64,000 nt of DNA from assembly GCF_900094595.1 (NCBI RefSeq), contig NZ_FMAD01000011.1, forward strand, positions 62,001-126,000, in the 5' to 3' direction. The position numbers and the translations under genes were made by a program. This DNA is from Cupriavidus alkaliphilus. Lineage in GTDB: Bacteria > Pseudomonadota > Gammaproteobacteria > Burkholderiales > Burkholderiaceae. Below the pieces are notes generated by a model. The model was not told the DNA's origin. It saw nothing but the letters and a program-made list of their open reading frames with translations, and did no database searches. This document shows positions 40,755 through 62,171 of the stretch, piece after piece (the stretch's first letter is position 1; every line of letters begins with the position of its first letter).

Positions 40755-41582
40755 ATGGCCAGACCCAGGGCGGGGACAGCGATGACGCCGGCGGGCGCGC
40801 CGGGGGCGCGTGCCGACAAGGCGCAGCGGGGCATCCAGAGCGTGGAGGTGGGCGCGCGCCTGCTCGCGGCGCTGGCCGCGGCGCGCGTACCGATGCCGCT
40901 GGCGGCGCTGGCCGACGCCGCGCAGCTGACGCCGGCGCAGGCGCATGCCTATCTGGTCAGCCTGGCGCGGCTGGGCCTGATCAAGCGCGACCATCTGTCC
41001 GGCCGCTACGAGCCCGGACCGCTGTCGCTGCGCCTGGGCCTGCTGCACCTGGAGCAGGACGACGCCTGGCGCGCCGCGCTGCCACGCGCGGACGCGCTGG
41101 CGCAGGCGCTGGGCTGCAGCGTGGCGATCTGCCTGGCCGGGCCGCAGGGGCCGACCATCGTGCGCTATGTGCCGGCGAGCGCGCCGCTGCACGTCAACCT
41201 GCACGTGGGCACGGTGATGGCGCTGGCCGCCACCGCCACTGGCCGCGTGTTTTGCGCCTTCCAGCCGCCGGCGCAGTGGCAGCCGCTATGGCAGGCGCAG
41301 CAACCGGAGGCCACCGCGGCGGACCTGGCCGCGTTCGGCGCCAGGCTGGCGGAGATTCGCGCGCGCGGCATCGAGCGCAGCATCGATGCCCCCAGCCCGG
41401 CCGTCAGCAGCCTCAGCGTGCCGGTGCTCGACGGCGCCGGCGCGCTGCGGCTGGTGCTGACGCTGGTGGGATCGACCGGTGCCATCGACGTCGACTGGCA
41501 CGGCGCGGCGGCGCGGGCGCTGCTGTGCGCGGGCGCGGAGATCGGCGCGGCGCTGCGCGAACCGAACGGTGAACAGGCATGA
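40755..41582 (+). CDS. IclR-family transcription regulator (first of a pair)
   Basis: 275 residues. The N-terminal winged helix (about residues 23-85; QRGIQSVEVGARLLAAL, then LTPAQAHAYLVSLARLGLIKRD) is followed by the IclR effector domain (LHLEQDDAWRA to the end; VNLHVGTVMALAATATGRVF). The ATG at 40755 has AGGA a few nt upstream; the longer frame to 40677 crosses the promoter region. It probably controls the divergent monooxygenase unit. Its stop overlaps the next IclR gene by 4 nt. Confidence 0.85.
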   Translation: MARPRAGTAMTPAGAPGARADKAQRGIQSVEVGARLLAALAAARVPMPLAALADAAQLTPAQAHAYLVSLARLGLIKRDHLSGRYEPGPLSLRLGLLHLEQDDAWRAALPRADALAQALGCSVAICLAGPQGPTIVRYVPASAPLHVNLHVGTVMALAATATGRVFCAFQPPAQWQPLWQAQQPEATAADLAAFGARLAEIRARGIERSIDAPSPAVSSLSVPVLDGAGALRLVLTLVGSTGAIDVDWHGAAARALLCAGAEIGAALREPNGEQA

Positions 41583-42409
41583 GCGGCGCGAACGAAACCC
41601 CGCAGGACCCCGACGGCGGCAAGCCGCAGCGCGGCATCCAGTCGCTCGACAGCACCGGCCAGTTGCTCGGCGCGCTGGTGGCCGCGGGCCGGCCGCTGCC
41701 ACTGCGCGACCTGGCGCTGGCCGCGGGCATGCCGGCGGCGAAGGCATTTCCGCACCTGGTCAGCCTGCAGAAGACCGGACTGCTGGCGCGCGATGCCGCC
41801 GGCAATTACCTGTGCGGACCACTGGCGCTGGAGCTGGGGCTGATCGCGCTGCAGCGGCTGTCGCCGACGCGCGAGGCCGAACCCGAGGTGATCGAACTGG
41901 CCGGGACCACGGGCCTGAGCGTGGCGATGGCCGTGCTGGGGCCGCTGGGGCCCACCGTGGTGCGGCTGGAAGAATCGGCGCGGCCGCAGCATGTCAGCCT
42001 GCGCGTGGGCACGGTGCTGTCGCTGGTCCATACCGCCATCGGCCGCACCGTCGCCGCGCACCTGCCGGCCAACGTGCTGGCGGGCCTGCTGCAGAACGAT
42101 GCGCTGCGCATGGCGGGCGCCGCCGCCGGCCAGGTGCTCGGAGCGGGCGGCAGGCTGGCGCCGGCCTACGCCGCGCGCCTGGCGCAGGTGCGCGCGGCGC
42201 GCATCGACAATGCACTGAGCCATCCGGTGCCGGGCATCGACACGCTGGCGGCACCGGTGTTCGACCACACCGGCAGCCTGGCGCTGGTGATCGCGGTGAT
42301 GGGTTCCAGCGGCAGCTTCGACAGCGGCACCGAAGGCGCCACGGCCGCGCTGGTGCGGCAGGCGGCGGCACGGCTGTCGTGGCGCTTCGGCGCGCCGGAC
42401 GCCGCCTGA
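41579..42409 (+). CDS. IclR-family transcription regulator (second of a pair)
   Basis: 276 residues, same build as its neighbour: PQRGIQSLDSTGQLLGALVAAG, a winged helix with MPAAKAFPHLVSLQKTGLL, then the effector domain with VSLRVGTVLSLVHTAIGRTV. The shared QRGIQS start and VGTV core show a tandem duplication. The ATGA overlap couples the two, so they are made in similar amounts and could form mixed dimers. A short hairpin follows. Confidence 0.85.
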   Translation: MSGANETPQDPDGGKPQRGIQSLDSTGQLLGALVAAGRPLPLRDLALAAGMPAAKAFPHLVSLQKTGLLARDAAGNYLCGPLALELGLIALQRLSPTREAEPEVIELAGTTGLSVAMAVLGPLGPTVVRLEESARPQHVSLRVGTVLSLVHTAIGRTVAAHLPANVLAGLLQNDALRMAGAAAGQVLGAGGRLAPAYAARLAQVRAARIDNALSHPVPGIDTLAAPVFDHTGSLALVIAVMGSSGSFDSGTEGATAALVRQAAARLSWRFGAPDAA

Positions 42410-43513: not shown

Positions 43514-45487
43514 TCAGTCAGGCTGGCGCAGCCGCGCGATGGTGCCGAACAGGGTCTCCAGCTCCACCGGCTTGACCAGGTGCGCATCGAAGCCGGCGGC
43601 CTCGGTATGCTGCCGGTCCGCCGGCTGGCCGAAGCCGGTCAGCGCGACAAAGCGGGTCGATTCGGTGCCCGCCACGCCGCGCATGGCGCGCACCACCTCG
43701 AAGCCGTCCATGCCCGGCATGGCCAGGTCGATCAGCGCAATATGCGGACGGCAGCGCGGCGCCACGTGCAGGGCTTCGGAGCCGTCGTAGGCGATGGTCA
43801 CCTCATGGCCGCACATTTCGAGCAGCATCGCCAGGCTGTCGGCGGCGTCGCGGTTGTCGTCGACCAGCAGGATGCGCTGCACCTGCAGGTCGGTATTGGC
43901 CTGGCCGGTGGCGGGCATGCCGGCGCCGTGCGCATCGTCGGGCTGGCGCGCGGCCGGCAGCGGCAGCCGTAGCGTGAAGGTGCTGCCCAGCCCCGGCCCG
44001 GCGCTGGTGGCCGCGATGGTGCCGCCATGCAGTTCTACCAGCGAGCGGCACAGCGACAGGCCGATGCCCAGTCCGCCTTGCACATCGGTGCCCGGCCGGC
44101 TTTCCTGCACGAACAACTGGAAGATGTCCTCGAGCGCGTGCGGCGAGATGCCGCGGCCCTGGTCGGTCACGCGCAGCTCCAGGGTACGTTTCTGCACCGC
44201 CGTGGCTATCGTCACCACCGTGCCCGCCGGTGAAAACTTCGACGCATTGAGCACCAGGTTCTGCAGCACCTGCACCAGCCGGGTCTTGTCGGCATCCAGG
44301 CGGATCGCGCCGGGCGCGCCCTGCACGTCTACGCGCTGCGACTTGGCATCGAGCGCCGGGCGCGCGCCCTCGATCGCCAGGCCGATGATCTCGTCGAGTT
44401 CCACCGGTCCGGTGCGCAGCTCGATCCGGCCGGAGGTGATGCGTCCGATATCGAGCAGGTCGTCGACGAGCCGGCTCAGGTGCGTCACCTGGCGCTCGAT
44501 CAGGGCCAGGCTCTGGTTGGCCAGCGCGCCGTCGCCCGGGGCGAGCCGCATCGCGGTCAGCGCGCTGCGCACCGGCGCCAGCGGATTGCGCAGCTCATGC
44601 GAAAGCGTGGCCAGAAATTCATTCAGGCGCTGGCTCGAGCGTTCCAGCTCTTCGCGGCGGCGGCGTTCGCTCATGTCGCGCGTCACCTTGGCAAAGCCGC
44701 GCAGCGCGCGCGAATCGTCGTAGACGGCGGTCAGCGTGACATTGGCCCAGAACAGCGAGCCGTCCTTGCGCACGCGCCAGCCCTCGTCCTCGATGCGTCC
44801 GGCGCGCCGGGCCAGGTCCAGGTGCCGCGCCGGCTTGCCGGCGGCGACGTCCTCCTGCGGATAGAACAGCGAGAAATGGCGGCCGATGATTTCATCGCGG
44901 CGGTAGCCCTTGATATAGGACGCGCCCGAGTTCCAGCTGACGATATGGCCGCCGGGATCGAGCATGAAGATCGCATAATCCTTGACCCCTTCGACCAGGA
45001 GGCGCAGCGATTCCTCGCTCTGGCGCAGCGCCTCGGCGGCGCGGCGCTGCTCGGTCAGGTCACGCGTGACCTTGCCGAAGCCGATCAGCCGGCCCTCGGG
45101 GTCGCGCAGCGCGGTGATGACGACGTTGGCCCAGAAGCGGCTGCCGTCCTTGCGCACGCGCCAGCCCTCGTCCTCGAAGCGGCCCAGTTCGGCGGCCGCC
45201 TTCAGCTCGGCGTCGGGCCAGCGCCGGGCCACGGCGTCGGGCGTATAGAAGTGCGAGAAATGCTTGCCCAGGATCTCCTCGCGCCGGTATCCCTTGATGC
45301 GGGCCGCGCCCTTGTTCCAGCTGGAGACATGGCCACCCACGTCGAGCGTGAAGATGGCGTAGTCCTGCACGGCTTCCACCAGCGTCCGGTAAGGGGTATC
45401 CGCCGCGTTCGGATGGTCGGGGCCGCCGGCCTCGGGGCTGCTGGCGTTGCCGGCAAGGGGTTGTGGATCGTCGGGGCGTCTTGTCAT
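43514..45487 (-). CDS. Hybrid histidine kinase with two PAS domains
   Basis: 657 residues, no membrane helix, so a cytoplasmic sensor. PAS1 lies at about residues 30-150 and PAS2 at 155-280. The two are near copies (YAIFTLDVGGHVSSWNKGA and YAIFMLDPGGHIVSWNSGA; both have DEGWRVRKDGS and end in KVTRD). Then comes HisKA with H297 in TLSHELRNPL, the HATPase (QNLVLNASKFSPAG; GGLGIGLSL), and a C-terminal receiver with D587 in LIDLAMPGMDGFE. No separate response regulator is adjacent. It faces an FNR-type operon. The ribosome site before ATG 45487 is weak. Confidence 0.92.
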   Translation of the reverse strand: MTRRPDDPQPLAGNASSPEAGGPDHPNAADTPYRTLVEAVQDYAIFTLDVGGHVSSWNKGAARIKGYRREEILGKHFSHFYTPDAVARRWPDAELKAAAELGRFEDEGWRVRKDGSRFWANVVITALRDPEGRLIGFGKVTRDLTEQRRAAEALRQSEESLRLLVEGVKDYAIFMLDPGGHIVSWNSGASYIKGYRRDEIIGRHFSLFYPQEDVAAGKPARHLDLARRAGRIEDEGWRVRKDGSLFWANVTLTAVYDDSRALRGFAKVTRDMSERRRREELERSSQRLNEFLATLSHELRNPLAPVRSALTAMRLAPGDGALANQSLALIERQVTHLSRLVDDLLDIGRITSGRIELRTGPVELDEIIGLAIEGARPALDAKSQRVDVQGAPGAIRLDADKTRLVQVLQNLVLNASKFSPAGTVVTIATAVQKRTLELRVTDQGRGISPHALEDIFQLFVQESRPGTDVQGGLGIGLSLCRSLVELHGGTIAATSAGPGLGSTFTLRLPLPAARQPDDAHGAGMPATGQANTDLQVQRILLVDDNRDAADSLAMLLEMCGHEVTIAYDGSEALHVAPRCRPHIALIDLAMPGMDGFEVVRAMRGVAGTESTRFVALTGFGQPADRQHTEAAGFDAHLVKPVELETLFGTIARLRQPD

Positions 45488-45735
45488 GGGATGGGTTGGG
45501 CGAAGTGCCGGCGCTGCCGGCGCATCCGATCCTGATGGTGGGGTAAGGATACGCCTGCTTGCGCTTCGTTGGCACCGTCCCGCGCGGTCATGTGCAGCAC
45601 GGACGTCCCGGGGGCCCACGCGCGGCAAGGTCGGACGCTTCCATGCCCAGAATCGGAATGTACGGATTGTCTGGTGAGGGCTGCTCCATAGAATTGACGC
45701 ACGAGGTTCTCAAGGTTTCACAGCCCACAGTGCCG

Positions 45736-46539
45736 ATGACACAGTCCGATGATCGCCAGCCGCAGCGCGAAGCCATGCCATGCAGCACGTGTTGCCAGAT
45801 GGCCGGCGCCTGCCCGGACTGCGCGCCGGCCGGCCAGGCACGCGGCGCGCCAGGCGTCGAAGCGGCGCAACGCATGGTGCGCCTGCGCAAGGGCGAATTC
45901 CTGTACCTGCTGGGAGACCCGGTGACCTCGGTCTATGCCATTCGTGTCGGCACCATCAAGACCCATGTCACCACCGAAGACGGGCGCACCCAGGTGGTCG
46001 CCTTCCACTTTCCCGGCGACATGGTGGGACTGGACAGCCTGGCGCGTCCGCACTATGCGTCGTACGCCACCGCGCTGGAAGACACCAAGCTGTGCCTGTT
46101 CACCGTGGACGCGCTGCGCCTGGCCGCGACCACGCTGGCGCCGCTCGGGCGGCAGCTGCTGCTGGCGCTGGACGGCCAGCTGCAGCGCGCGCGGGCGGTA
46201 CAGACCATGCTGGCGCTGATGACGGCCGAAGAACGGCTGGTGACGTTCCTGCTGTGGCTGGCGGACGGCTTCGCGCTGCGCGGATTTTCCTCGTCGGCCT
46301 TTGTACTGCGCATGAGCCGCGAGGAAATCGGGAGCTATATCGGCCTGACGCTGGAAACGGTGAGCCGTCAGTTCTCGCGGCTGGCCGATGGCGGCTTGAT
46401 CACGGTACGGCACCGCACCATCACACTGCTCGACAAGCCCGCGCTGCGGGCCATTGCCGCCCGCCCGATGATCCTCGCCCACGCACCCGCGCCGCGCTTG
46501 CGCATGGCGGGCGGCGCGTCCGCACCGGCAAAAGAATGA
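45736..46539 (+). CDS. FNR-type oxygen-sensing regulator
   Basis: 267 residues from ATG 45736 (ribosome site weak; ATG 45775 would still keep the cysteines). N-terminal cysteines C16, C19, C20, C26 and C29 (CSTCCQMAGACPDC) and central C120 match the FNR set C20, C23, C29 and C122 that holds an oxygen-labile 4Fe-4S cluster. A cyclic-nucleotide-type barrel follows. The DNA-reading helix GLTLETVSRQFSRL keeps E207, S210 and R211 (FNR E209, S212, R213), so it should read TTGAT-N4-ATCAA sites. It is followed after 1 nt by a FlhD-like gene. Confidence 0.9.
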   Translation: MTQSDDRQPQREAMPCSTCCQMAGACPDCAPAGQARGAPGVEAAQRMVRLRKGEFLYLLGDPVTSVYAIRVGTIKTHVTTEDGRTQVVAFHFPGDMVGLDSLARPHYASYATALEDTKLCLFTVDALRLAATTLAPLGRQLLLALDGQLQRARAVQTMLALMTAEERLVTFLLWLADGFALRGFSSSAFVLRMSREEIGSYIGLTLETVSRQFSRLADGGLITVRHRTITLLDKPALRAIAARPMILAHAPAPRLRMAGGASAPAKE

Positions 46540-46540
46540 C

Positions 46541-46894
46541 ATGGAACAGGACAGGCCCTCTTGCGCAAGCGTGCCGGACACGCAACAGGAAACGGACACC
46601 GACGGCCAGCGCCAGCTCGAGGCGCTGAATCTGTCCTACCTGCTGGTGGTACAGCGGCTGATGCGCGAGAACGAGGCCGAGGCGCTGTTCCGGCTCGGCC
46701 TCGGGCGCGAGATGGGCCGCCTGCTGGCATCGCTGACGCCGACGCAGATCATCGCGCTGGCGCGGTCCAGCCTGATGCGGTACCGCTTCCGGCTGGATGA
46801 CGGCCTGCTGGTGGCCGCGCTGACCGGGGCCGAGCCGCTGCACGCCTTGCACGGCATGCATGCCGCGATCGTGATGGCATCACGGCGGGATTGA
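46541..46894 (+). CDS. FlhD-like transcription regulator
   Basis: 117 residues. The core LNLSYLLVVQRLMRENEAEALFRLG, then EMGRLLASLTPTQIIALA and FRLDD, matches the flagellar activator subunit FlhD (116-119 residues) along its length. The cysteine that bridges the E. coli FlhD dimer (in LVCHFRF) is not present here (LMRYRFRL). FlhD needs FlhC to bind DNA, and no FlhC-like gene is in the window; the next gene has no FlhC zinc cysteines. It is translated just after the FNR-type gene (1-nt gap). Confidence 0.75.
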   Translation: MEQDRPSCASVPDTQQETDTDGQRQLEALNLSYLLVVQRLMRENEAEALFRLGLGREMGRLLASLTPTQIIALARSSLMRYRFRLDDGLLVAALTGAEPLHALHGMHAAIVMASRRD

Positions 46895-46921
46895 GACATG
46901 ACTTCTGGAATCGGAGGGTAT

Positions 46922-47755
46922 ATGACGGGCAATGCGATGACGCATGTCGAGCTGAAGCGGATGACCATGGCCGCCGACCGCCGCGGCGGCTGGCCGCCCG
47001 CGGTCGACCGCACCGAAATCGCCGGCACGCTGCAGATGCAGGACATCGTCCAGGCCCTTGGCGCCGAGGCCGCCGAGCAGCGCTGCATCGAAGCCGGCCT
47101 GGAAACGCTGGCCATGGCCGGGCGCCCGCCCGTCCGGGCGGTGGTCTCGGTGGGCCACGGCCGGCAGCCGGCGCTGGACTTCTATGTCGATGCGGATATC
47201 AAGACGTGCTGCGCGCTGGACCGCACCCTGCAGCAGGCCATCGCCAGCCGCTTCACCAGCGTGCTGCCGCCAGGGCTGTCGGTGTCGGTGCTGCCGCTGG
47301 AGGTCTATGCGCGCGAATGCGCCGGGCAGGACCCCGGGCCCGGGGCGCAGGCCTGGGGCGCGTGCGCGCGTGAGCTGCTGGCCGGCGGCGAGATGCAGCA
47401 GCGGCTCGCGGTCGTATGCGCCTATCTGTCGGTGCTGCAGGACGCGCAGGGACTTGCCGAGCGGCTCGGCTACCTGCAGCAGAACCTGCTCGACCAGGGC
47501 CAGGAGGCGCTGTCCTGGCGCCTGCGGCGGCACCGCAGCGTCGAGGGACGCACGCTGGCGCAGTCGCTGGAAGGGCTGGCCCGCGCCGCGGACGGGGCGC
47601 TGTATGAGTTCGGCACCCGTTACAGCCGGGAGCGGGCCAGCTACCAGATCGAACAGATGCAGCAGGTGCACGACCAGATCGCCCGCTTTCGGGACAGCTG
47701 CCGGCTGGCGCCGCCGCAGTCCTGCCCCCGGCACGCCGCGGGCACGGCGGGCTGA
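46922..47755 (+). CDS. Unknown protein in the FNR-FlhD-like operon
   Basis: 277 residues from ATG 46922, which has GGAGGG 4-5 nt upstream; ATG 46898 lacks this. The N-terminal 130 residues appear alpha/beta (VRAVVSVGHGRQPALDFYVDADI; LSVSVLPLEVYAREC). The C-terminal 140 are helical and Gln/Glu/Arg-rich (LQQNLLDQGQEALSWRLRRH; YQIEQMQQVHDQIARFRDSC), possibly coiled coil. No family recognised. It overlaps neither neighbour and ends 12 nt from convergent gabD. Confidence 0.6.
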   Translation: MTGNAMTHVELKRMTMAADRRGGWPPAVDRTEIAGTLQMQDIVQALGAEAAEQRCIEAGLETLAMAGRPPVRAVVSVGHGRQPALDFYVDADIKTCCALDRTLQQAIASRFTSVLPPGLSVSVLPLEVYARECAGQDPGPGAQAWGACARELLAGGEMQQRLAVVCAYLSVLQDAQGLAERLGYLQQNLLDQGQEALSWRLRRHRSVEGRTLAQSLEGLARAADGALYEFGTRYSRERASYQIEQMQQVHDQIARFRDSCRLAPPQSCPRHAAGTAG

Positions 47756-47767
47756 GGGCGCGCCGGG

Positions 47768-49216
47768 TCAGATGCCGGCCATGCAGGTGTACTTGATCAC
47801 CAGGTAGTCGTCGATGCCGTAATGCGAGCCCTCGCGGCCCACGCCCGATTGCTTGACGCCCCCGAACGGCGCCACCTCGTTCGAGATCAGGCCCGTGTTG
47901 ACGCCGACCATGCCGTATTCCAGCCGTTCCGAGACGCGCCAGACCCGGCCCAGGTCGCGCGCATAGAAGTAGCTGGCCAGGCCGAACTCGGTGTCGTTGG
48001 CCATGGCGACCACGTCGTCCTCGGTGTCGAAGCGGAACAGCGGCGCGAGCGGGCCGAAGGTTTCCTCGCGCGCGACCAGCATGCCGGGCGCGACGTCGGC
48101 CAGCACCGTCGGCTGGAAGAAGGAGTGCCCGAGCGCATGGCGCTGGCCGCCCTGCAGCAGGCGCGCGCCCTTGCCGAGCGCGTCGGCGATATGCTCCTCG
48201 ACCTTGGCCACGGCCTTGTCGTCGATCAGCGGGCCGATGCGCACGCCGTCGTCCATGCCGTTGCCCACCTTCAGCGCCGCCACCGCGGCCACCAGCTTCT
48301 GCGCAAACGCCTCATACACGCCGGACTGCACGTAGATGCGGTTGGCGCAGACGCAGGTCTGACCGGCATTGCGGTACTTGGAAACGATCGCGCCTTCGAC
48401 GGCGGCGTCGAGGTCGGCATCGTCGAACACGATAAAGGGCGCGTTGCCGCCCAGTTCCATCGACACCTTCTTGATGGTGGCGGCGGTCTGCGCCATCAGC
48501 ACGCGCCCGACTTCGGTCGAGCCGGTGAAGGTCAGCTTGCGCACCAGCGCATTGCTGCTCATCTCGCCGCCGATCGCGCTGGCCGAGCCGGTCACCACCG
48601 ACAGCACGCCGGCGGGGATGCCGGCACGCTCGGCCAGGGCCACCAGCGCCAACGCCGTCAGCGGCGTCTGCGAGGCGGGTTTGACCACCATGGTGCAGCC
48701 GACCGCCAGCGCCGGGCCGGCCTTGCGGGTGATCATGGCGGCGGGGAAGTTCCACGGCGTGATCGCGGCACAGACCCCCACCGGTTCCTTGGTCACCACG
48801 ATGCGCTGGTTGCTGACCGGGGCGGGAATGGTATCGCCATAGACCCGCTTGCCTTCCTCGGCAAACCATTCGATGAACGAGGCCGCATAGGCGATCTCGC
48901 CACGCGCCTCGGCGATCGGCTTGCCTTGCTCCGCGGTCATGATGCGGGCCAGGTCCTCCTGGTTCGCCATGATCAGCTCGAACCATTTGCGCAGCAGCGC
49001 CGAGCGCTCCTTGGCGGTGCGGGCGCGCCACGCCGGCAGCGCGCGATTGGCGGCTTCGATGGCCTGGCGCGTCTCTTCGGCGCCCAGCTGCGGCACCTGG
49101 CCGACGCGCTCGCCGGTGGCGGGGTTGGTCACGTCGATGCGGCGCTCGCCATCGATCCAGCGGCCGTCAATCAAGCACTGCTGCCGCAGCAGCGAGGAAT
49201 CCTGGAGGTTCAGCAT
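47768..49216 (-). CDS. gabD: Succinate-semialdehyde dehydrogenase
   Basis: 482 residues, aldehyde dehydrogenase superfamily, GabD branch. ITPWNFPAAMITRK binds cofactor, E254 (ELGGNAP) is the general base and C288 (GQTCVCANR) the nucleophile; the C-V-C pair and these exact positions match E. coli GabD. It oxidises succinate semialdehyde to succinate with NAD(P)+, the last step of 4-aminobutyrate use. No gabT or gabP is nearby, so it may serve another semialdehyde route. GAG is the only ribosome-site trace before ATG 49216. Confidence 0.9.
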   Translation of the reverse strand: MLNLQDSSLLRQQCLIDGRWIDGERRIDVTNPATGERVGQVPQLGAEETRQAIEAANRALPAWRARTAKERSALLRKWFELIMANQEDLARIMTAEQGKPIAEARGEIAYAASFIEWFAEEGKRVYGDTIPAPVSNQRIVVTKEPVGVCAAITPWNFPAAMITRKAGPALAVGCTMVVKPASQTPLTALALVALAERAGIPAGVLSVVTGSASAIGGEMSSNALVRKLTFTGSTEVGRVLMAQTAATIKKVSMELGGNAPFIVFDDADLDAAVEGAIVSKYRNAGQTCVCANRIYVQSGVYEAFAQKLVAAVAALKVGNGMDDGVRIGPLIDDKAVAKVEEHIADALGKGARLLQGGQRHALGHSFFQPTVLADVAPGMLVAREETFGPLAPLFRFDTEDDVVAMANDTEFGLASYFYARDLGRVWRVSERLEYGMVGVNTGLISNEVAPFGGVKQSGVGREGSHYGIDDYLVIKYTCMAGI

Positions 49217-60881: not shown

Positions 60882-62171
60882 TCACCCAGCCACGAAATCC
60901 GCGTCGAGAACGTACATCTGCCGATCGCCGTCATGGATCGAATCGATGCAGATCTGCGTGCCATGGCGGCTCCAGCGTGGATGCAGGTCACACCGGTTCT
61001 CTTTCTTCAGGTTGGGGCTGGTGTAGAACGTGCCGATGTCGTAGCGACTGCCGTGCCCGACATGGTAGAGGAACAGCACACGCTCGTTGGTCTGCGCGTC
61101 AGGATAGGTATCGCTGAGCAGCCATTGCGGATGCGTGCGCGAGAACGTCATGTGGCCGTTCTCGGTCAGCAGCCCCGCGCCAATCACCGCGACCTCGCCG
61201 CCGCGGCGGTCTTCGTACAGATGGTAATGGATGCTGCCGTCATGCGGGCCCCAGACGACGATGTGCGTGTCGTCCTTCCACAAGGGGTGCGAGATCTGGT
61301 ACTCAGACTTTTCGTAGTCGAAGGTGCCCACCGCATCCGGATCGAAGTGCTCGGCCAGTTGCGGCAACGGATGGTCGGAGCACTCCAGCAGCCGCATGTC
61401 CGAGCCATCCGGATTGACGGTGATCAGGCGATGCAGGAAGCAGGTCTCGTCCTCCACGCGTTCGGTCCAGCGGTGCAGGAACAGCACGCGCGAAGACGAC
61501 GGATTGATCTCGATGTGGCTGACCCAGTGGATCGCCTTGTCCATCGAAGGGACGGGATGGAAGTTCCGGAGATCCTGGTAGCTGACGATCAGGCGTGATT
61601 GCCCGGTCCCGATCTCCATGGCATGGATGCCATCGTGCGCCGGGGCCAGTTCTGGCGACGGTCGGGCATGCAGCGAGCTTTCATCGCTGTAGCCGATGGT
61701 CTGGTGCGTCACGTAGAGCCGGCGGTAGTCGACACACAACGCATAGCGGCTGTCCGGTGCGACGACGTACACAGGCATGGGCAGGTAGCGCAGGGAGCCG
61801 TTTTCGACGTCGCAGACGGCCGCGCCCAAGCCGGGATAGAAGAGCGATTCGTCATCGATGCGGCAGTTGTAGATCACCTGCCGGCCGGGCGCGCCGTCCA
61901 GCCATTGCAGTTGTGCCCCCATCTGCCAGTTCCAGGCCCGGGTCTCGCCGACGGTGACGAAGCGGTCCTCATCGTGGGTGTCGAAATAGCCGATCTGCGC
62001 CACCAGGTCTGGCGTGAGGTCGGCGTCGGCCATCGGAACCCGGTGCGCGAGCACGTAGCGGTCGCTACGATCCCATGGGCTCTTGTTGTAGTAGCCGAAG
62101 AAGTGGTGGTACTTGCCGTCGCCAAGGCGGCGGCAAGGAAGGGTCAGGCGTTGGATGGCCGGGTGTTGCAT
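60882..62171 (-). CDS. Beta-propeller protein, distantly like oligogalacturonate lyase
   Basis: 429 residues, no signal peptide. Repeating strands with WD/YWTD-like turns, such as HIEINPSSSRVLFLHRW and CDLHPRWSRHGTQICIDS, suggest a seven-bladed propeller. The early HHFFGYYNKSPWD and the His-rich loops (SYQDLRNFHPV, HPLWKDDTHIVVWGPHDGS) recall oligogalacturonate lyase (PL22) metal-site histidines, but I cannot confirm that. It may act on a uronic-acid-type or other sugar compound. It follows a Bug receptor gene by 44 nt and should share the LysR control. No ribosome site is clear before ATG 62171. Confidence 0.65.
   Translation of the reverse strand: MQHPAIQRLTLPCRRLGDGKYHHFFGYYNKSPWDRSDRYVLAHRVPMADADLTPDLVAQIGYFDTHDEDRFVTVGETRAWNWQMGAQLQWLDGAPGRQVIYNCRIDDESLFYPGLGAAVCDVENGSLRYLPMPVYVVAPDSRYALCVDYRRLYVTHQTIGYSDESSLHARPSPELAPAHDGIHAMEIGTGQSRLIVSYQDLRNFHPVPSMDKAIHWVSHIEINPSSSRVLFLHRWTERVEDETCFLHRLITVNPDGSDMRLLECSDHPLPQLAEHFDPDAVGTFDYEKSEYQISHPLWKDDTHIVVWGPHDGSIHYHLYEDRRGGEVAVIGAGLLTENGHMTFSRTHPQWLLSDTYPDAQTNERVLFLYHVGHGSRYDIGTFYTSPNLKKENRCDLHPRWSRHGTQICIDSIHDGDRQMYVLDADFVAG

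Follow-up and report, generated by a model that had tools for sequence, protein, structure and literature searches.

Several described systems come close to the one reported here. Besides FlhD4C2 of enterobacteria, FlhDC-type activators of non-flagellar genes include SetCD of the SXT/R391 integrative and conjugative elements and AcaCD of IncA/C plasmids (PMC4344509, PMC4605294), the chemoreceptor-like protein Tls sequesters FlhDC in E. coli B2 (PMC12623472), and the EAL-like FlhDC inhibitor YdiV/RflP forms a complex with FlhD (PMC3510510), as far as the accessible parts of these accounts go. Duplicated FlhD and FlhC homologues have been reported from D. aromatica in the accessible text of PMC2907700. 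Here we analyse an operon of Cupriavidus alkaliphilus (assembly GCF_900094595.1) that lies in a window of 64,000 nucleotides, positions 62,001 to 126,000 of contig NZ_FMAD01000011.1, and encodes an FNR/CRP-type regulator, an FlhD paralogue (FlhD2) and a further protein, THIRD. Gene content and linkage, the split of the subunits between loci, phylogeny and a promoter site, all established by computation, make it probable that FlhD2 partners an orphan FlhC encoded at a distant locus, under FNR-type control.

Like FlhD4C2, the system draws on both subunit families, with Pfam and NCBIfam matches over the cut-offs and the zinc-type cysteines of FlhC. FlhD2 (46541..46894, + strand) scored 98.6 bits against PF05247 (cut-off 27) and 93.4 against the NCBIfam FlhD model (cut-off 90), and the orphan FlhC, found without an FlhD on contig C17 of the source genome, scored 240.4 bits against PF05280 (cut-off 27). 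Four zinc-type cysteines align in 22/22 orphan FlhC rows, as in all 62 FlhC rows. The system differs from FlhD4C2 in being an extra copy beside an ordinary FlhD-FlhC pair, in the placement of the subunits at two loci in a split class of genomes, in an FNR-type site before flhC, and in its retention by a genome in which searches for flagellin and FlhA gave no match. Whereas SetCD and AcaCD reside on mobile elements and activate transfer genes, the genes described here show conserved synteny in one clade and stand in a chemoreceptor and FNR setting.

An earlier reading of the window made without database searches (the sequence-only reading) had proposed three genes in one operon, and all three open reading frames are present, with profile matches for FNR and FlhD. 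The first gene (45736..46539, + strand) encodes a paralogue of the housekeeping FNR that matches HTH_Crp_2 (E 5.8e-18) and cNMP_binding (E 2.9e-15) in Pfam and shows CX3CX5C, LEDTKLC and ETVSR motifs. It shares with FNR/FixK regulators the cNMP-binding fold, the Crp helix-turn-helix, the ETVSR helix and the LEDxxC cysteine, but at 158.2 bits it falls below the cut-off of 228 for the NCBIfam model PRK11161 Fnr (NF008365), has CX3CX5C, and coexists with a separate housekeeping-type FNR gene on contig C28 that reaches 250.9 bits. The proposed 1-nucleotide (nt) gap to flhD2 was confirmed from coordinates 46539 and 46541. The start of THIRD (46922..47755, + strand) moves from 46898 to the ATG at 46922 behind GGAGGG, where aligned close relatives begin MTGNA. 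Because the genome has its own housekeeping FNR, and contig C10 encodes an FlhD-FlhC pair of the ordinary kind, the three genes form an accessory paralogue set; the paralogue status already suspected for FlhD is also supported by its tree grouping.

The proposed absence of an FlhC is true of the window locus but not of the genome, where the orphan FlhC is a candidate partner. Across a sample of 60 Cupriavidus genomes (numbered with the prefix G), THIRD was found in 33, and in 28 of these an extra FlhD lies beside it with an FNR-type gene in the fetched locus, so the three genes do travel together, the point on which the sequence-only reading had called for a survey. The five other THIRD genomes (G003, G004, G005, G016 and G026) hold weaker relatives only. 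Seven of the 28 have a complete operon with flhC between flhD and THIRD (G014, G023, G033, G039, G042, G050 and G059), and the other 21, the source genome included, form the split class, with no flhC adjoining flhD2. All 21 split genomes carry an additional FlhC elsewhere, broken into two frames in G019, and G039 carries both copies, one in the operon and one at an orphan locus. In the 32 genomes without the operon, no additional FlhC match exceeded 41 bits save for the FlhD-FlhC pair of G016 (C. metallidurans CH34); G023 and G059 own a pair of this type, at what we call Y loci, besides their complete operons. Since an orphan FlhC occurs in every split genome, the apparent lack of an FlhC is more plausibly an FlhD-FlhC pair whose genes lie at two separate loci, and the reading of an FlhD with no partner at all was rejected.

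Phylogenetic trees place these copies in distinct groups. With 22 rows of orphan FlhC and 7 of operon FlhC, the two types form separate clades with support of 99/97 and 100/100, respectively, joined to one another at 97/78, and FlhD2 from split and complete operons forms a single clade (100/99). For these trees ordinary copies were thinned to 10-12, and the FlhD of G018, which is too short, and unrelated solitary FlhD rows were left out. A quick DNA tree of the ordinary flhDC region from 57 genomes, with Shimodaira-Hasegawa-like approximate likelihood ratio (SH-aLRT) support only and without G014, G047 and G058, for which no ordinary FlhD region was fetched, recovered the operon genomes as one clade in the order five complete-operon genomes (100), G039 (89) and 21 split genomes (100). 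The simplest history suggested by these sequences would be a single acquisition of the module carrying two flhC copies, after which one branch lost the orphan copy and the other lost the operon copy.

A TTGAY-N4-RTCAA-type FNR box matching at at least 9 of 10 positions precedes 20 of the 21 orphan flhC genes scored (of 22 loci, L124 was dropped for want of an anchor), and in all 20 a -10-like hexamer (at least 4/6) lies 21-23 nt downstream. This spacing is the geometry of class II FNR promoters. Upstream regions of other genes in the same loci reached at least 9/10 in 23/695 cases, or in 21/329 with at least 150 nt of intergenic DNA, and 6 of the 23 background boxes had such a hexamer at 22 or 23 nt, a check that allowed two spacings for the background and three for orphan flhC. 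The site stays while its spacer varies by subclade (TTGACAAGAATCAC, TTGATGCATATCAG and TTGACAAAAGTCAA); the orphan loci are related by descent, and the 20/21 count overstates their independence. By box score, all seven complete operons also have a 9/10 FNR-type match upstream, at -74 in G039 and at -277 to -289 in the other six; in these six (L066-L071) the match is TTGAT-N4-GCCAA, 277-289 nt before the FNR anchor codon.

After the extra flhC in 20 of the 21 split genomes lies a small gene, C12, of roughly 110-140 codons; none of its scanned members exceeded a cut-off in Pfam or NCBIfam. C12 occurs in 28 of the 60 genomes, namely 27 of the 28 operon genomes and the Y locus of C. metallidurans; the sole operon genome without it, G045, has a contig that ends just after flhC. 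Six of the seven complete-operon genomes keep C12 without flhC, and there the divergent neighbour is a methyl-accepting chemotaxis protein (MCP) gene in the one case scanned, G014; in each of the remaining five it looks by eye like the same gene, though broken up in G042. The exception, G039, has flhC-C12 adjoining a divergent MCP-like gene that was called in two pieces. In three complete-operon genomes (L173, L174 and L177) a gene of about 905-908 codons follows C12, with repeats that appear autotransporter-like by eye.

Together these features suggest how the module may work. The window operon would supply FlhD2, one half of an accessory FlhD-FlhC regulator, which would pair with the orphan FlhC from the distant locus that also encodes C12. 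An FNR-type factor, either the operon paralogue or the housekeeping FNR, would bind the class II-like site before flhC-C12, so that FlhC would rise as oxygen falls, and FlhD2C2 would therefore form mainly then. The complex would activate a target set of its own, probably not just flagella, and C12 and THIRD might modulate it, C12 by linking it to a chemoreceptor.

Oxygen sensing and motility had both been suggested for this operon, and each suggestion needs qualification. The link to FNR is strengthened by the site before the likely partner flhC; sensing by the window FNR is less secure. The oxygen-sensing cluster of FNR is held by CX2CX5C and a distal cysteine, and the ETVSR-type helix is the DNA-reading helix. 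In line with the DNA-reading residues noted by the sequence-only reading, ETVSR is present in the window protein, as it is in 26/27 operon FNR rows, and LEDxxC is kept in 27/27; of the cluster cysteines said to be kept, the distal LEDxxC is there, but the window has CX3CX5C rather than CX2CX5C. CX2CX5C is found in 7/7 complete-operon rows, while the 20 split-class rows comprise 6 with CX2CX5C, 10 with CX3CX5C (the window included) and 4 with neither, and the close relatives G022, G031 and G055 have lost the third cysteine. DNA reading by the paralogue is thus likely to be kept, judging by these motifs, and oxygen sensing through a cluster in the window lineage is uncertain because the cysteine motif drifts.

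The proposed motility output is doubtful. Flagellin was found in 58 of the 60 genomes, the exceptions being G014 and G058, and in 27 of the 28 operon genomes, C. laharis LMG 23992 (G014) being the single exception. FHIPEP (FlhA-type) had no match in G014 or G058 and was present in the other four of six genomes tested, and an ordinary-type FlhD and FlhC were found in all genus genomes searched except G014, G047 and G058. C. laharis, whose assembly is listed as 100% complete, nevertheless keeps FNR, FlhD, FlhC, THIRD and C12. Because it retains the operon and C12 in an assembly that gave no match for flagellin, FlhA or ordinary FlhDC, the accessory FlhDC is unlikely to act on flagella alone; a recent or laboratory loss of flagella in C. 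laharis is possible. Separately, a further FHIPEP gene of the source genome (FlhA / type III export; G000:C22:205251-207236, 666.5 bits) lies beyond the window at a distance of about 97 kb from the operon, besides the flagellar-type copy on contig C10, and G054 likewise has two.

Several observations weigh against a partnership of FlhD2 with the orphan FlhC under FNR-type control. Since the operon genomes form one clade, their counts are not independent, and the pattern, though clear, amounts to about three evolutionary events rather than 28. The FlhD tree sets G039 outside all other operon FlhD (90/77) instead of beside the split class. In 14 of the 20 split-class rows the cysteine motif of FNR has changed or disappeared, and copies are broken or truncated in four genomes (FNR and FlhD fragments in G018, FlhC and the FNR end in G019, THIRD in G042 and G059). 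Upstream of the split operons themselves no FNR box was found in the 19 rows scored (6-8/10; 6 in the window), in a scan that covered 26 of the 28 loci after the FNR anchors of L116 and L122 failed; with boxes before orphan flhC and complete operons and none here, a good FNR-type match tends to accompany flhC. FlhD2 also evolves faster in the window clade, with a median dN/dS (ratio of nonsynonymous to synonymous substitution rates) of 0.57 among ten relatives, than in complete operons, where G014 compared with four relatives gave 0.11-0.20 for FlhD2 and 0.08-0.30 across four proteins. Finally, with species distance regressed out, FlhD2 distances tracked orphan FlhC best (partial r 0.63, against 0.42 for THIRD, 0.42 for C12 and 0.35 for FNR; 153 pairs with all five proteins from 19 of the 21 split genomes, r values without a significance test), but other pairs correlated more strongly, with 0.87 for FNR-THIRD, 0.80 for FNR-C12 and 0.75 for THIRD-C12.

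Some of these points would suit a module in decay, in which the window lineage has lost the operon FlhC, the FNR ligands are drifting and FlhD constraint has relaxed, leaving a remnant of little function. The FlhD2 ratio of 0.57, the altered FNR cysteines and the broken copies listed above speak for such decay, but the open frames are intact in most of the clade, the FNR-type site before orphan flhC is kept in 20/21, and median dN/dS in the same ten relatives stays low for the other proteins (FNR 0.26, THIRD 0.28, orphan FlhC 0.26, C12 0.22). Another split clade, of five genomes, gave medians of 0.37 for FNR, 0.42 for FlhD, 0.25 for THIRD, 0.21 for orphan FlhC and 0.14 for C12. We consider decay quite unlikely.

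Pairing could instead be crossed, FlhD2 joining the ordinary FlhC to tune normal flagellar genes at low oxygen and the orphan FlhC joining the ordinary FlhD. We regard this as rather unlikely: ordinary subunits are at hand in all but the three genomes named above, and FlhD-family subunits could mix in principle, but orphan and operon-type FlhC occur only in genomes with FlhD2, FlhD2 has its own FlhC adjoining in complete operons, and C. laharis combines FlhD2 and the operon FlhC with no other FlhC match above 30 bits. A further alternative, that FlhD2 needs no FlhC and works with THIRD while orphan FlhC-C12 forms a device of its own, is very unlikely. FlhD2 does adjoin THIRD in all 21 FlhC-less loci (as an FlhD fragment in G018), but FlhC separates the two in the seven complete operons, orphan FlhC occurs only alongside FlhD2, and the closer tracking of orphan FlhC than of THIRD by FlhD2 points the other way.

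The partnership of FlhD2 and orphan FlhC can also be set against gene clusters beyond Cupriavidus. C12 relatives were found in 60 of 398 sampled genomes of the family, 32 of them outside the genus, and we fetched 20 outside loci from 18 genomes, hand-chosen and mostly among the higher-scoring matches. Twelve of the 20 have C12 directly beside an MCP-type gene, and two have an FlhD nearby with no FlhC. Three (L230, L231 and L234) carry co-oriented genes for MCP, C12, EAL, FlhD and FlhC, preceded by a pair of FNR-type genes, and in each of them FNR boxes of 9-10/10 precede MCP and flhD genes. L234 was scanned; genes for a PAS kinase and a response regulator are interposed there, and the EAL protein also matches Protoglobin at the cut-off (25.1 against 25). 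The Y loci of Cupriavidus resemble this gene set. We infer that these clusters hold the module in one piece, and that the window lineage has its parts dispersed.

These clusters bring the module close to known modes of FlhDC control. Tls is a chemoreceptor-type protein that acts on FlhDC, and here C12 or flhC-C12 adjoins MCP-type genes in part of the loci; unlike Tls, both MCPs that were scanned show 4HB/Tar, HAMP and MCPsignal domains, and C12 is without counterpart in the accessible part of the Tls account (PMC12623472). YdiV/RflP is EAL-like, and here EAL genes neighbour accessory FlhD genes or are transcribed away from the complete operon; the three EAL proteins that were scanned comprise a fusion with a protoglobin-like domain, a stand-alone protein and a partial match. 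A wider picture, which we offer tentatively and would not call probable, is that Burkholderiaceae have a complete second FlhDC device. Its FlhD2C2 would be FNR-controlled, would be gated by EAL/globin proteins and, through a C12 adaptor, by a chemoreceptor, and would have a non-flagellar programme as its output; in one Cupriavidus lineage its subunits would have come to lie at distant loci, still coupled by the FNR site at flhC. Among the papers listed by literature searches, whose coverage excluded preprints and most subscription papers, we found no account of this module; those on second or multiple FlhDC included SetCD and AcaCD and were otherwise mainly enterobacterial, and none of the listed papers sought for C. 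laharis concerned that species. In the accessible text of PMC4803752, flhDC occurs solely in the reference list.

If the partnership is real, a chromosomal FlhDC paralogue would have been kept for a job other than, or beyond, flagella, and the genus provides a natural example of sister lineages that sorted paralogous subunits in different ways, one genome still holding both copies. The presence of FlhD-FlhC, FNR, chemoreceptor and EAL/globin genes in one module would make chemoreceptor, cyclic di-GMP or oxygen input to an FlhDC-type activator testable. C12, an uncharacterised family, may be a chemoreceptor-to-transcription adaptor.

THIRD, suggested as a modulator of FlhD2 only as a guess, matched no Pfam or NCBIfam model even with E values of up to 1 allowed, and all 14 named loci that encode relatives are from Cupriavidus. 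Its AlphaFold model (mean predicted local distance difference test score, pLDDT, 74.4) has an alpha/beta domain followed by a helical domain that may be HEPN-like. Comparison of the C-terminal helical half with HEPN gave a best Foldseek E of 0.03 and a best VIA-align Z of 12.8 (root-mean-square deviation 3.2 over 120 residues), within that tool's chance range for helical models; the VIA-align list for the whole model covers only the C-terminal half well, and the absence of other families there is uninformative. The HEPN RNase motif is RX4-6H; the C-terminal half of THIRD has a conserved W-R-x-R-x-H-x-S with an R-to-H spacing of X3. A fused nucleotidyltransferase-HEPN protein was rejected, as the N-domain folded alone (pLDDT 89.3) gave no clear PDB match in Foldseek. 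The weaker relatives in G003, G005, G004 and G016 (L081 8726-9511, L082, L083 and L084; C. metallidurans included) adjoin a response-regulator-like gene by eye; G004, G005 and G016 also have a large putative sensor gene near the relative, and G003 has a fimbrial-subunit-like gene close to it, both again by eye.

Upstream of the operon, aligned split-class and complete operons share a conserved promoter element, TCGGAATGTACGGATTG (45653..45669, + strand), that is not an FNR box and is nearly unique, with one other near-match (1 mismatch) in the whole source genome. A putative -10 hexamer, TAGAAT (45689..45694, + strand), follows on consensus match only and is TARAAT-like in most aligned upstreams. 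The divergent gene (43514..45487, - strand, start inferred from 657-residue relatives) encodes a PAS-PAS-HisKA-HATPase-REC hybrid kinase. It faces the operon as described earlier and is kept in the 21 split-class loci and G039, but an EAL-type gene, scanned in one of six, replaces it in 6/7 flhC-containing operon genomes; it is tied to the FNR-FlhD-THIRD system by position only. The replacing gene family in L066-L071 has 382-402 codons, and the member scanned, from L066, gave a partial EAL match (48.8 bits, model positions 104-236).

A DUF2857 or mobile-element reading was considered and rejected. The DUF2857 match of FlhD2 reached only E 0.019, the flanks are syntenic, and a PLSDB search gave 7 records, all below 60% identity. 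Solitary FlhD-family genes occur in other settings: divergent ones in G015, G023 and G047 (L077-L080; G047 is 54% complete), with no FlhC found nearby, fall outside the window-FlhD group, and two in another genus (L228 12436-12801 and L229 5160-5576) sit on a very long branch near MCP-C12 pairs. Downstream of the operon, a succinate-semialdehyde dehydrogenase gene (47768..49216, - strand), identified from profile matches and synteny, is a conserved flank outside the system. On the other side, 40782-42409 holds a tandem pair of IclR-type regulator genes and, divergent from them, a gene for a Bug-type receptor, named by eye, and this flank is conserved in most operon loci.

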